DNA from: Telmatospirillum sp.
GTDB taxonomy: Bacteria > Pseudomonadota > Alphaproteobacteria > Rhodospirillales > Magnetospirillaceae
Assembly (NCBI GenBank): GCA_009712185.1
Contig: WASQ01000126.1
Span: 101,914-165,913, forward strand
Length of the DNA: 64,000 bases
Direction: 5' to 3'
This document shows, piece after piece, positions 34,082 through 41,050 of this stretch (the stretch's first letter is position 1; each line of letters starts with the position of its first letter). The translations under genes were made by a program, and so were the position numbers. Below the pieces are notes generated by a model. That model searched no databases and had not been told where the DNA came from. It saw only the letters and a program-made list of their open reading frames with translations.

Positions 34082-34744
34082 TCAACGACGATTGCCCACC
34101 GGCATGCTTTGATTGAGCTCCCGCTCGGCTTCTGTCATGCCGGCCGGCAAACGGTGCGCGATCCCCTTGTGGCAGTCGATACAGGTCCTGCCGTCGGTCT
34201 CCGCATCCGTATGCGCCACCCGGGCCCGGTCGGTCTGGCGGGCCAGATCCATCGAATCGAAGGAGTGGCAGTTACGGCATTCGCGGGAATCCGTCTCCTT
34301 CATCGTCTGCCAGACGCTGCGCGCCAGATCGAGCCGCTTGGCCTCGAATTTCTCGCGCGTGTCGATCTCTCCGGTCAGGTGATGGAAGACCTCCGACGAG
34401 GCGGCGATCTTGCGCTTCATCTTATGGACCCAGTCATGCGGAACATGGCAGTCGGGGCAGGTCGCCCGCACACCCGCATGATTCTGGTCATGAACCGAGG
34501 TCCGGTATTCGCGATAGGAGTTCTGATCCATTTCATGGCAGGACCGGCAGAACGTCTCGTTGTTGGTCATCTCCAGGCCCCAGTTGAACCCGCCCCAGAA
34601 CAGAATGCCGGCCAAAAATCCGGTCAACAGCAGCAGGCCCAGGGAAAGCTGCGCGGACGGCCGCGCCAGGAAGCCCCAGATCCCCACGGCCAGCCCCCAG
34701 AGGGTTGGGCGGCGACGCTCGACCATCTCATCACTCTGATTCAT
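34082..34744 (-). CDS. napC: NapC/NirT-family tetrahaem cytochrome c
   Basis: Four CxxCH (CRSCH, CPDCH, CRNCH, CIDCH), N-terminal TM helix. Confidence 0.93.
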   Translation of the reverse strand: MNQSDEMVERRRPTLWGLAVGIWGFLARPSAQLSLGLLLLTGFLAGILFWGGFNWGLEMTNNETFCRSCHEMDQNSYREYRTSVHDQNHAGVRATCPDCHVPHDWVHKMKRKIAASSEVFHHLTGEIDTREKFEAKRLDLARSVWQTMKETDSRECRNCHSFDSMDLARQTDRARVAHTDAETDGRTCIDCHKGIAHRLPAGMTEAERELNQSMPVGNRR

Positions 34745-34762: not shown

Positions 34763-35239
34763 CTATTTGCCGGTCGCCGGCTGGAAGCGGTTTGTCACCA
34801 GGGGCTTCGCATCCACCTGGGGCGCATGGCATTGGGTACAGAACCACCGCTGGCCTGCCACCTTGTCCTGCTTGGTCCCGGCGCGATCGTAGTAATGCGA
34901 TACGCTGATCAGCGGCGCCTTCTCGCGGACATTATCGGGCCAGTCATGACATCGGAGGCACTGATTGACCTTGAGGTCGATCTCATATTTATCGACCCGG
35001 TGCGGGATCATCGGAGGCTGATCGAGGAAGGCCCGGTCATAGCGCCCGGCCTCGCGCACCGGAAACAGTGGCGGCACCGGATCCGGGTCCTCGCCGGCGA
35101 CATTGCCCCTGAGCGCGCGAAGGGGTTCGCCCGCGAACGCCGGCACGGTCAGCATCGCGCCGGCGCAAAGACCGACAACGGCAAGAAGGACAGAGATTTT
35201 TCCGCGCATGATGGCGGCTCCTTTTCTGCTGCTGCTCAT
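34763..35239 (-). CDS. napB: periplasmic nitrate reductase dihaem cytochrome subunit
   Basis: CLRCH and CTQCH motifs; VPPLFPVREAGRYDRAFLDQPPMIPH. Confidence 0.93.
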   Translation of the reverse strand: MSSSRKGAAIMRGKISVLLAVVGLCAGAMLTVPAFAGEPLRALRGNVAGEDPDPVPPLFPVREAGRYDRAFLDQPPMIPHRVDKYEIDLKVNQCLRCHDWPDNVREKAPLISVSHYYDRAGTKQDKVAGQRWFCTQCHAPQVDAKPLVTNRFQPATGK

Positions 35240-35243
35240 GGCG

Positions 35244-37745
35244 TCACGCCTTGTCCACGCGTACGGCGCATTTCTTGAAATCCGTCTCTTTCGAGATCGG
35301 GCAGGTGGCGTCCAGGGTCAGTCGGTTGACAAGCTGGCTTTCGTCGAACCAGGGCATGACCACCACCCCGACCGGGGGCCGGTTGCGGCCCGCCGTCTCC
35401 ACCCGGGTCAGCACCTCGCCGCGCCGGGACGCCACCTTGACCTGCTGGCCACGCCTCAGGCCCCGTTTGGCGGCGTCGTCGGGATGCATGAAGATCACCG
35501 CATTCGGGAAAGCGCGGTAAAGCTCCGGCACGCGCCGCGTCATGGACCCGGAATGCCAGTGTTCGAGCACGCGGCCGGTGACGAACCAGAGGTCATACTG
35601 GTCGTCCGGTTCCTCCGCCGCCGGCTCGTAAGGCAGGGCGAAGACATTGGCCTTGCCGTCGGCAAATCCATAGAACCGGATGCCCTCCCCGGCCTTCACA
35701 TAGGGATCGGATCCCTCTCTGAACCGCCAGGGCGTTTCCTTGCCGTCCACCACGGGCCACCGCAACCCCCGAGTCTGGTGGTAGGTGTCGAAGGGGGCCA
35801 GATCGTGGCCATGCCCGCGCCCGAAAGACGCATATTCCTCGAACAGGCCTTTCTGGACATAGAATCCCATGGCCCGGGATTCGTCATTGTCGAAACCGGG
35901 CGTGATGTCGGACAGCGGGAAACGGTCGACCACGCCATTGCGGAACAGCACGTCGAACAGGGTCTTGCCGCGCAGATCGGGCTTTTTGGCGATCAACTCC
36001 TCCGGCCAGACCTCCTCCACCTTGAAGCGCTTCGAGAATTCCATCACCTGCCAGAGGTCCGACCGCGCCTCGCCCGGCGCCCGCACCTGCTGGCGCCAGA
36101 ACTGCGTCCGCCTCTCCGCATTGCCATAGGCCCCCTCCTTCTCCACCCACATGGCGGTCGGCAGGATCAGGTCGGCCGCCAGGGCGGTCACCGTCGGATA
36201 GGGATCGGATACGACGATGAAATTGGCCGGATTGCGATATCCCGGAAGGGTTTCCTCGTTCAGATTGGCCGAGGCCTGGAGATTGTTGGTGCATTGCACC
36301 CAATAGCAGTTGAGTTTTCCATCCTTCAGCATCCGGTTCTGCAGAACGGCGTGATAGCCGGGCTTGTCCGGGATGGTCCCCTCGGGAAGGTTCCAGATCT
36401 CTTCCGTGCGTTTGCGGTGCGCCGGATTGACCACGACCATGTCGGCGGGCAGCCGGTGCGAAAAGGTCCCGACCTCGCGCGCGGTCCCGCAGGCGGACGG
36501 CTGCCCGGTCAGCGAGAACGGATTACTGCCCGGCTTGGCGATCTTGCCCGTCAGCAGATGGAGATTGTAGATCATGTTGTTCACCCAGGTGCCGCGGCTG
36601 TGCTGGTTGAACCCCATGGTCCAGAAACTGACGATCTTGCGGGCCGGATCGGCGTAAAGCGCGGCCAGCGCCTCCAGAGTCGCGGGCGGCACCCCGGTGA
36701 GTTTCGCCACCTTGTCCAGGGTGTAATCGGCGACGAACGCCTTGAAGGCGGCGAAATCGATCGGCTCCGACGCGTCCGGATTGGCCGCGTTTCTGGCGGC
36801 CTTCTCTTTCGGATGGTCGGGGCGCAGCCCATAGCCGATATCGGCCGCGCCTTTGCGGAAATTCACGAGCTTCGTGATGAAGGCCTCGTCATAGGCCTTA
36901 TGCATGATGATGTGATTGGCGATGTAATTCAGGATCGCGAGATCGGTCTGCGGCTTGAAGACGACCTGAATGTCCGCCAGATCGAAGCTGCGGTTCTCAT
37001 AGGTCGACATCGCGGCCAGGGTGACATCCTTGTGGCCCAGCCGATGTTCGGCGATCCGGGTCCACAACACCGGATGCATCTCCGCCATATTGGCGCCCCA
37101 CAGGACATAGGTGTCGGCATGCTCGATGTCGTCGAAACAGCCCATCGGCTCATCGATGCCGAACGTCCGCATGAATCCCGCCACCGCCGAGGCCATGCAA
37201 TGGCGCGCGTTGGGATCGATGTTGTGGGACCGGAATCCCGCCTTCATCAATTTGACGGCCCCGTAGCCTTCCCACACGGTCCACTGGCCCGACCCGAACA
37301 TGCCCACCGCCGTCGGCCCCTTGGCCTTCAGGGTCTCTTTCCATTTGGCCGCCATGACATCGAACGCCTCGTCCCAGGTGACGGGCGTGAACTCGCCGTC
37401 CTTGGCATAGACGCCGTTCTTTTTGCGCAACAGCGGGCGGGTCAGCCGGTCCTCGCCATAGAGGATTTTGGACAGGAAATAGCCCTTGATACAGTTCAGC
37501 CCGCGATTGACCGGGGCATCGGGATCGGCGCGCGTGGCGACCACGCGCCCCTGTTGGACGCCGCCCATCACGCCGCAGCCGGTACCGCAGAACCGGCAGC
37601 CCGCCTTGTCCCCGCGGATGTCTCCGGCCTCCGCCGCCTCCGCTCCGCCAAGGGGGACCGCGCCACCGGGAACGGCCATCCCGGCCGCCGCCGCCGTGGC
37701 GGCTATTGCGTTGGCCTTGATGAAATCACGCCGGGTAAGGCTCAT
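35244..37745 (-). CDS. napA: periplasmic nitrate reductase catalytic subunit (Tat)
   Basis: [70 protein letters not shown]. Confidence 0.97.
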
Positions 37746-38041
37746 CTTGGGGACTCCTGTTCTTCCCAATGGTGGTAGATGAGGGCGGCAGACAGAACGC
37801 CCTCGACGGCCGGAAGACGGGTCAGGATCTGTCCCGCCCCCTCTTCCTCCGTATCCTCGACGGTGACGACCAGATGACCGGCCTGATCCGCCTGATGCAC
37901 CTCGACACCGGAGACCCGCCGCAGCCGGTCCCCGACCGCCTCGACCTCGCCGGAGCGGGCATAGACCAGGACACCGCACAGATGATGTCCCCGGGCCCCG
38001 GGACCACGCCCGTCCTCCTCGATGAACTTTCCGACACGCAT
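37742..38041 (-). CDS. napD: NapD chaperone
   Basis: [35 protein letters not shown]-type overlap with napA. Confidence 0.9.
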
Positions 38042-38119: not shown

Positions 38120-39562
38120 TCAGTGACTGGTGACCGGCGTCGCCGACGGCTGCGGCGCGTAATTGACGGCCCGCGTCTTGACGTCGCGGCGAAGGGCAAG
38201 CTGACCCTCGCGGCACATGTTGATCGCCTCGGCGAAGGACTTGACCGAATACTGGTCGGCATGGAAACCCATGGAGTTTTCCGAAACCAGGAAGTCGATC
38301 ATGAAGCCGGCGTCACGCTGAAGTTTGCGGGCCGCGGCCAGTTCCTCGTCGGTGGCACCGGCATCCTTGGCGGCCTTCAGATCGCCGATCAGGTCGACCA
38401 GGGCGTTCATCGCGACATTGCGCGTCTCGACGAAGCGGGTCTGGATCTCCTCGACGCGGCTCTTCATCTCCGTCTCGGACCAGCGATGGCAGCCCTGGCA
38501 GGAGGCGTTGACGTTCAGCAACGGCGACCGGACATTGTGGTCCGAGATCTTCATCGCCCCTTCCCGGACGTAAGGCATGTGGCAGTCGGCGCAGGCGACG
38601 CCGGACCGGGCGTGGATGCCCTGGCTCCAGGTCTCGAACTCGGGATGGCGGGCCTTCATCATCGGCGCGCCGGTCTCCTTGTGGGTCCACTCGACGACAT
38701 TGTCCTCGTTCTCGGACGCGACGATCTGGTCCAGCTTCAGGCCCTTGGGCCAGGGGAAGGTCAGGCGCTTGTCGGCGCCGCGGAAGTAATAGGTGACATG
38801 GCACTGGGCGCAGACGTAGGTCCGCATTTCCTGACGGCTGGCGTCGCGGTTGACGTCATAGTCCTTGACACCCTGGGACGCCTTCAGCGCGCGGATGCCC
38901 TCGATGAAGGCGGGACGGGAAATCCGCAGATTCATCGTCTTGGCGTCATGGCAGTCGACACAGGAAATCGGATGCGTCACCTGTTTGCGGGCATCGGCAT
39001 AGGGCATGTGGTTGATCGCCTCGAAGCCCTTGGTGATGTCGCCGTTGCCCAGCTTCATATAGGTCGGGTAAAGCGACGCGTGGCAGTTGAGGCAGGTGCC
39101 CGGCTGCTTGGCGACACGCTGGCGCTCGGTGAACACCTGATCCTCCAGCATGTAGGCGTGCCCGCGCTTTTCGCGATAGTCGGCGGCAAAGGAATAGCCG
39201 GCCCACATGGTCTTCAGCCGTGGATCCAGTTCCAGCTTTGACCGCGCCACCACCGTCCGCGGATCGGCCTCCGTCGGCGAATGGGGGACGCCCTCACTGC
39301 CGCCGAAACGGGTCCGCTCCATGTCGGTCGTCATCTTGTAGCGGTCATATTGAAGGGGAAAATTCTGTCCCCAGACGGCGGGATCATCGATCGTGTCGTT
39401 GAGCGCCGTCACCTGGAAGAACGGGGTTTTCGCCTCCTGTTTATGCTCGAAAATATTGACGAGCAAAGCGGCGATCCCGGCGCCCGCCGCGATCGCGATG
39501 GCCGCGATGACGACCAGCAACCGGCCCTTGCCGGGAGAATGGGGTGCGTTTGGCGTAGCCAT
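38120..39562 (-). CDS. nrfA: pentahaem ammonia-forming cytochrome c nitrite reductase (CxxCH catalytic haem variant)
   Basis: Five CxxCH: CLNCH, CVDCH, CAQCH, CADCH, CQGCH; NrfA N-terminal and C-terminal signatures. Confidence 0.95.
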
Positions 39563-39579: not shown

Positions 39580-40083
39580 TCAGTGCGTTTGTGAAGTGGC
39601 GGCGGAAACGGCGGTTCCGGGCGAAAGGGACGCGGCCCCATGCCCGACATCGGCATGGCACCGGATGCAGGAAATGTCCTGGCCGCTGTGGGGATTGCCG
39701 TCGATGGCCGACGTCATGGCACCGTGACAGGAACGGCAGGTTCCTTCCGTGACCTTGGCATCGAAATCCTTGATCAGGATGTTGTCCGGGATCGGGCCGA
39801 AGGTGAATGCCATGCTGTGCGAGACGCCATTGGCGGCCTTCACGGCATATTTCCCGATGGTGTCATGGGGGGTATGGCAGTCGTTGCAGGTCGCCGCCGC
39901 ATGATGCGGACTTTTCATCCAGCCGGAATAATAGTCCTGCATCACATGACAATTGGCACAGGCGGTTGGGTCGTTGGTAAGATAAGAATAACCACGGGCA
40001 TAAACAAACGTGTAAATGCCAAGCCCCACAGTCGCCCCCAAGGCTACGGCAAGAAACACTGCTGCGCGAATTTTCCAAATCAT
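39580..40083 (-). CDS. nrfH: tetrahaem quinol dehydrogenase NrfH
   Basis: Four CxxCH (CANCH, CNDCH, CRSCH, CIRCH), TM anchor, adjacent to nrfA. Confidence 0.93.
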   Translation of the reverse strand: MIWKIRAAVFLAVALGATVGLGIYTFVYARGYSYLTNDPTACANCHVMQDYYSGWMKSPHHAAATCNDCHTPHDTIGKYAVKAANGVSHSMAFTFGPIPDNILIKDFDAKVTEGTCRSCHGAMTSAIDGNPHSGQDISCIRCHADVGHGAASLSPGTAVSAATSQTH

Positions 40084-40207: not shown

Positions 40208-40221
40208 TTGACATTGGTCAA
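40208..40221. promoter_or_regulatory. FNR/DNR-type box TTGAC-ATTG-GTCAA
   Basis: Perfect match to TTGAY-N4-RTCAA; ~125 nt upstream of nrfH. Confidence 0.8.
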
Positions 40222-40366: not shown

Positions 40367-41050
40367 TCAGGAGGCCAGACGGACGGGGCCAAGTCCTTCG
40401 GCGGAGCCGGTGAGGACCACCTCTCCCCCCTCCATCCAGATCGCGCCCGCCTTCTGGAGTTTCACCAGAGTCCGCGACAGAACCTCGGGCCCGGTCCCCG
40501 CCATGAAGGCGAGGTCCTTTTTCGACACCGGCAACGGGAACCGCCGGCATCCGCCCGACAGGTCTTCCAAAAGCGACAGAACTCTGGCTTCCACCGACAG
40601 GCTGGCCTGGCGCTGTGCGAAATTGCTGAAGGCGTGGCTTTCCGAGGCCACCGCGCGCATCAGGCCGAGCGAAAAACCGCCCCCCGCCGCCATGGCCGCC
40701 AGCAGATCGGCCTCGGGCAGCGGACAGACCACGGTCTCCTCGACCGCGCGCGCCGATGTGCGATGTTCATGACCGTCGAACAGGTCGGCGCATCCCAGCA
40801 ATTCTCCGGGCCGGACCAGACGCAGGATCGCGACACCGCCATTGTCGTCGACATATTCGAGGACCAGCGCGCCGGACAGAACCGAAAAGGCGGACAGACA
40901 GTCCGCCCCCTGGTCGAACAGATAGGCGCCACGGGCGACACGCTGGAGATGACGGGTTTCGCGGCAGCGCCCCGCGCCGCACTCGCCGGCCCCAAGGCCA
41001 CAGGGCTCGACGCAGGACATCGGATAGGATCGGATGGCGGCGATGGACAT
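40367..41050 (-). CDS. Crp/Fnr family transcriptional regulator with N-terminal cysteine cluster
   Basis: CVEPCGLGAGECGAGRC + VVCPLP (FNR C122-like position), cNMP-binding fold, C-terminal HTH. Confidence 0.88.
   Translation of the reverse strand: MSIAAIRSYPMSCVEPCGLGAGECGAGRCRETRHLQRVARGAYLFDQGADCLSAFSVLSGALVLEYVDDNGGVAILRLVRPGELLGCADLFDGHEHRTSARAVEETVVCPLPEADLLAAMAAGGGFSLGLMRAVASESHAFSNFAQRQASLSVEARVLSLLEDLSGGCRRFPLPVSKKDLAFMAGTGPEVLSRTLVKLQKAGAIWMEGGEVVLTGSAEGLGPVRLAS

Follow-up and report, generated by a model that had tools for sequence, protein, structure and literature searches.

The nrfA gene of the window, the stretch of 64,000 nucleotides from Telmatospirillum sp. analysed as a whole, encodes a nitrite reductase that combines a CxxCH motif at the catalytic haem with threonine and arginine in place of the glutamate and glutamine that bind calcium. 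CxxCH and the arginine-for-calcium exchange have each been published separately, and their combination is new as far as we checked; no description of the two together was found in the texts searched. The enzyme family is a known one, and the replacement at the active site is genuine, clean and coordinated. On present evidence the gene probably encodes a calcium-independent, His-ligated nitrite reductase of the CXXCH clade, which would be fed by NrfH and form ammonium, with Arg305 replacing Ca2+ and with nrfHA acquired from an acidobacterial relative.

The NrfA protein and its catalytic haem

The product of nrfA matched the Pfam profile PF02335 (Cytochrom_C552; E 2.5e-131, 439 bits, cut-off 24.1) and the NrfA sequences of the PDB (phmmer, E 4e-60), and the profile match together with five haem motifs assigns it to the NrfA family. 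The haem motifs, Thr257 and Arg305 were read directly from the codons, and the residues equivalent to those of known enzymes (ligand positions in W. succinogenes numbering) were located by alignment.

38120..39562, minus strand: nrfA, catalytic subunit of pentahaem cytochrome c nitrite reductase, 480 aa, ATG at 39562
39428..39529, minus strand: N-terminal hydrophobic helix (residues 12-45, a helix in the AlphaFold2 model) and juxtamembrane NIFEHKQEA, probably a membrane anchor that is not cleaved
39164..39166, minus strand: Arg133, equivalent of catalytic Arg114, kept (Arg in 118 of 120 rows)
39080..39094, minus strand: haem 1 (catalytic) motif CLNCH, C157-H161, CxxCH instead of CxxCK
38948..38962, minus strand: haem 2 motif CVDCH, residues 201-205
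38798..38812, minus strand: haem 3 motif CAQCH, residues 251-255
38792..38794, minus strand: Thr257, at the position of the bidentate Ca ligand Glu217
38789..38791, minus strand: Tyr258, equivalent of catalytic Tyr218, kept (Tyr in 120 of 120 rows)
38690..38692, minus strand: Glu291, third site, changing together with Arg305
38648..38650, minus strand: Arg305, in the place of Ca ligand Gln276; the G. lovleyi and G. metallireducens enzymes also have Arg
38645..38647, minus strand: His306, equivalent of catalytic His277, kept (His in 120 of 120 rows)
38579..38593, minus strand: haem 4 motif CADCH, residues 324-328
38486..38500, minus strand: haem 5 motif CQGCH, residues 355-359

The trio R133, Y258 and H306 reproduces the NrfA active site in the 120-row alignment, and with these residues kept the enzyme is probably functional. 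An AlphaFold2 model, computed from the sequences of the window and the locus and containing neither haems nor metals, had a mean pLDDT of 89.1 and matched 1fs7, 2rdz and 6v0a with target-normalised TM scores of 0.77-0.80; 8bcx was also matched. NrfA is usually described as a soluble, periplasmic protein. A hydrophobic helix at the N terminus, with ALLVNIFE[RH]KQEA after it, is common among the CxxCH-clade NrfAs (L003-L060) and looks like an uncleaved membrane anchor.

CLNCH aligned with the CxxCK of solved enzymes (8bcx and 1fs7) and with no other motif, and the first-pass annotation had therefore placed it rightly at haem 1; its codon positions for CLNCH and Arg305 are also exact. That annotation had also proposed that CxxCH plus a changed calcium site would be a distinct subclass. 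The combination is indeed distinct, but CxxCH alone defines a large known clade, the CXXCH clade (Saghai 2023, PMC10716430), with C. jejuni, Anaeromyxobacter and Intrasporangium as cited examples. Outside the genus, the 79 best relatives (L003-L081), whose titles point to nearly twenty phyla, all carry CxxCH at haem 1, so that the motif is not peculiar to the window enzyme. Those with aligned calcium positions, i.e., all but the partial L056, have Glu257 and Gln305, with the single exception of L052 (Thr, Gln). The window NrfA itself falls within the CXXCH clade by its CLNCH and by its position in a branch of 58 rows (support 95/100).

For CxxCH enzymes, the identity of the proximal ligand at haem 1 is formally an open question (PMC12285233). 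No lysine that is specific to the CxxCH clade and able to replace the haem-1 ligand was present in the 120-row alignment, and His161 of CLNCH would for this reason be the most likely ligand. We found no solved structure of any CxxCH NrfA, which makes the clade with CxxCH, Thr and Arg a good target for settling the question.

A degenerate enzyme, or one that now acts on hydroxylamine, NO or sulfite with little flux from nitrite to ammonium, is quite improbable. A change from Lys to His does lower the nitrite activity of CxxCK enzymes, the K134H mutant of W. succinogenes keeping at most 40% (PMC8840924), but in the window the catalytic residues are kept and nrfA is clustered with nap, the gene is conserved in three Telmatospirillum genomes, and C. 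jejuni and A. dehalogenans ammonify nitrate with NrfAs of the CxxCH kind (PMC12285233).

Arginine at the calcium position

The threonine and arginine at the two calcium-ligand positions, and their likeness to the G. lovleyi subclass, had been pointed out in the first-pass annotation. The codons bear out both residues, which are identical to those of 6V0A (G. lovleyi) and 8BCX (G. metallireducens), and 6V0A keeps Lys at haem 1 as had been stated. In an alignment of 122 sequences, the states of the haem-1 residue, 257 and 305 were HEQ in 104 rows, HTR in 9, KTR in 4 (the state of 6V0A and 8BCX), KEQ in 3 and HTQ in 1; one further row ends before haem 1 and reads TR. The HTQ row is L052, a Candidatus Hydrogenedentota MAG in which Thr stands at the Glu217 position while Gln remains; it may be an intermediate or an error of the MAG. 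The three states of the window enzyme recur in two other Telmatospirillum genomes (G001 and G004), so they are not a sequencing artefact; the named MAG L002 and genome G001 appear to be one record.

Three positions of the window protein, Thr257, Glu291 and Arg305, were the only ones present in 8/8 rows of the group with CxxCH, Thr and Arg and in 0/104 of the CxxCH NrfAs with Glu257 and Gln305 in the 120-row alignment, and the pattern is therefore not due to chance. Residue 291 is Asp in all 108 rows with Gln305, Glu in 8/8 of the CxxCH rows with Arg and Glu in 2/4 of the CxxCK rows with Arg. The pairing of Arg305 with Glu257 did not occur in any of the aligned sequences. The absence of the Glu and Gln ligands had been read before as an apparent loss of the calcium site; they are gone, but Thr and Arg, here with Glu291, are better described as a coordinated swap of arginine for calcium, i.e., as a replacement.

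The xxRH motif of the window NrfA (KARHP) is that of the calcium-independent (Arg) subclass, while the CxxCK seen at haem 1 of characterised members of that subclass is absent (CLNCH). Likewise, the Glu/Gln calcium ligands, usual in the sampled members of the CXXCH clade though not a defining feature of it, are absent. The window enzyme shares with the CXXCH-clade type (Saghai 2023; C. jejuni, Anaeromyxobacter, Intrasporangium calvum) five CxxCH motifs, the NrfH partner and the common N-terminal anchor helix, and is about 50-66% identical to the relatives aligned; it differs in having Thr/Arg and Glu291 where sampled members have Glu/Gln (except L052, Thr/Gln), and that clade is described as Ca-dependent. 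The NrfA fold, Glu291 and the replacement of Glu217 by Thr and of Gln276 by Arg are common to the window NrfA and two Geobacter enzymes, the calcium-free NrfA of G. (Trichlorobacter) lovleyi and NrfA-1 of G. metallireducens, which is of the Arg type, but in those enzymes haem 1 is CxxCK and Lys274 and Ala275, kept in the window NrfA, are replaced; 8BCX is 37% identical to it. Three gammaproteobacterial NrfAs with CxxCK and Arg (L142-L144) have the same HVTYYF and KARHPE, but show 24-28% identity and Asp, not Glu, at 291 in 2/3.

In the G. lovleyi enzyme, according to reviews, Arg sits in the Ca position, EDTA is without effect and the enzyme is less active when the Arg is mutated (PMC8840924, PMC12285233). 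Calcium independence of the window enzyme is suggested because its Thr and Arg are identical to those of the solved Geobacter enzymes. By its placement in the alignment, the guanidinium of Arg305 would replace the active-site Ca2+, accommodated by the changes from Glu to Thr at 257 and from Asp to Glu at 291, and Glu291 may help to seat the arginine. It is unlikely that Thr257, Glu291 and backbone carbonyls continue to hold Ca2+ or another cation at the site, leaving a Ca-dependent enzyme of altered affinity. Lys303, a backbone-carbonyl ligand, and Tyr258 are kept, and Glu284, nearly specific to the group with CxxCH, Thr and Arg in the 120-row alignment, adds an acidic side chain nearby in sequence; against this, the solved Geobacter enzymes have Arg in the place of Ca, and an Arg at the Gln276 position, as noted, never accompanies Glu257 in the aligned sequences.

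Phylogeny, distribution and origin

A maximum-likelihood tree of 77 NrfA rows was computed from the alignment minus its three diagnostic columns. In this tree, in which the bootstrap had not fully settled, the eight rows with CxxCH, Thr and Arg formed one clade (100/99) within the 58-row branch of the CXXCH clade, and the Telmatospirillum NrfA was sister to that of the acidobacterial genome G1090 (100/100). None of 200 bootstrap trees kept the Glu/Gln CxxCH rows as a clade excluding the Thr+Arg rows. Because the Thr+Arg rows nest there, the arginine solution arose inside the CXXCH clade and independently of Geobacter. The opposite order, with a separate change from Lys to His in the Geobacter-type CxxCK Arg class, is very improbable: it would account for the identity of Thr, Arg and Glu291 with those of G. 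metallireducens NrfA, but it is contradicted by the nesting and the bootstrap trees, by 64% identity of the window NrfA to L004 (Glu/Gln, CxxCH) against 37% to 8BCX, and by the low identity to the gammaproteobacterial CxxCK+Arg enzymes.

The combination is not that of a single variant enzyme but that of a clade found, among the genomes surveyed, only in Telmatospirillum and one order of Acidobacteriota. A degenerate-codon survey, which detects exact pattern matches only in the sampled genomes, found no genuine example among 214 genomes of Verrucomicrobiota, nor among 120 from the order that includes the Bryobacterales loci. Matches to K-x-R-H-P-E/D-F/Y in Verrucomicrobiota, the Bryobacterales sample and some Acidobacteriota were open frames devoid of haem motifs and were rejected. 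The 299 Pseudomonadota genomes surveyed yielded the window's own genome and the three gammaproteobacterial CxxCK+Arg enzymes. CxxCH with Thr and Arg was found in 1/297 sampled Acidobacteriota genomes, and 200 genomes of the order of that genome contained six CxxCH-clade Thr+Arg genes (L129, L131, L132, L133, L135 and L137), CxxCH being directly seen in five of them since the reading frame of L131 ends before haem 1. This order differs from the Bryobacterales sample, and no genome is common to both lists.

NrfA is rare in Alphaproteobacteria: one of 385 sampled genomes had a match, the window's own, and 3/61 relatives, all of the genus Telmatospirillum, had an NrfA above the family cut-off. The window NrfA is 86% identical to that of Telmatospirillum L002. 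The nesting and this rarity suggest, from a patchy sample, that Telmatospirillum probably received nrfHA from an acidobacterial lineage and joined it to its own napDABC operon. Outside those samples, a Hyphomicrobiales MAG (L054) carries an alphaproteobacterial CxxCH NrfA of the Glu/Gln type, whose N terminus resembles a signal peptide and not the anchor.

Calcium is spoken of as essential for the CXXCH clade in Saghai 2023, where this clade receives about 90% of the nrfA placements from soil and calcium is treated as essential when modelling ammonification versus denitrification (PMC10716430). The same work has 131 Arg-type sequences in several regions of its tree (PMC10716430), and Campecino 2020, as reported in a review, lists actinobacterial Arg enzymes; the combination of CxxCH and Arg may sit unremarked in either data set. 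The arginine-for-calcium branch would break the generalisation that the CXXCH clade needs calcium; among the nitrite reducers dominant in soils, calcium may thus not be a requirement throughout. It also offers a natural comparison of Ca and Arg behind the same haem-1 motif among close homologues (about 64% identity).

Gene neighbourhood, haem attachment and electron supply

The genes around nrfA, all on the same strand, were assigned from their Pfam matches as follows.

40367..41050, minus strand: Crp/FNR-family regulator adjoining nrfHA (PF00027, PF13545)
39580..40083, minus strand: nrfH, tetrahaem NapC/NirT-family quinol dehydrogenase with the CxxCHxM haem-1 motif CANCHVM (PF03264 and translation; start inferred at 40083)
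37742..38041, minus strand: napD (PF03927)
35244..37742, minus strand: napA, periplasmic nitrate reductase (PF00384, PF01568, PF04879; start approximate)
34763..35239, minus strand: napB (PF03892)
34082..34744, minus strand: napC (PF03264, 256 bits)

Upstream of nrfA lie nrfH, the Crp/FNR-type regulator and a response regulator, and downstream lie napD, napA, napB and napC. The adjacent nrfH, with its CANCHVM and PF03264 match, points to an NrfHA complex, and nrfHA and the nap genes make a compact nitrate-to-ammonium module in which NapDABC would supply nitrite to NrfA. The order Crp-nrfH-nrfA-napD-napA-napB-napC was also found in Telmatospirillum L002 and, as far as the fragment reaches, in a third record of the genus, L083. 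In the 15-19 kb around nrfA of four acidobacterial relatives, neither napA, napB, napD nor a related regulator was found. The palindrome TTGACATTGGTCAA at 40208-40221, upstream of nrfH, resembles an FNR/NnrR-type box; as an FNR-like site it was set aside, the count of such matches in the window being at chance level.

The CxxCK haem of E. coli needs a dedicated lyase, while S. oneidensis seems to manage without one (PMC12285233); a CxxCH haem should need none. A second lyase, dedicated to CxxCK, was looked for, and the genome contained a single protein of the CcmF/NrfE family, located inside a ccmCDEFGH operon (L145, contig C135; System I). The cut-off of the NrfE model was passed by no control genome, E. 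coli included, and it is the count of one that serves as evidence. System I with a single CcmF-type lyase suits a CxxCH enzyme, and haem 1 would be attached by this general Ccm machinery, with no lyase dedicated to CxxCK. System II is expected for NrfHA enzymes with five CxxCH motifs (PMC12285233), and from the System I genes found this genome looks like an exception.

A wider reading, which we hold to be somewhat better than an even chance, is that a hitherto undescribed branch of CXXCH-clade NrfA with a His-ligated haem, Arg in the Ca pocket and a compensating change from Asp to Glu became calcium-independent in Acidobacteriota, perhaps where conditions were acidic and poor in calcium, and from there reached Telmatospirillum as a System I, lyase-free and calcium-free route to ammonium. 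The peatland organism Telmatospirillum siberiense is acidotolerant (PMC5786683); that a low-calcium habitat caused the swap is speculation.

MenD, a marker of the classical menaquinone pathway, was present in three Telmatospirillum genomes, and PF02621, a marker of the futalosine pathway, was absent from the window's own genome. Menaquinol is on these grounds the likely donor to NrfH, and electrons would flow from the quinol pool through NrfH to NrfA.
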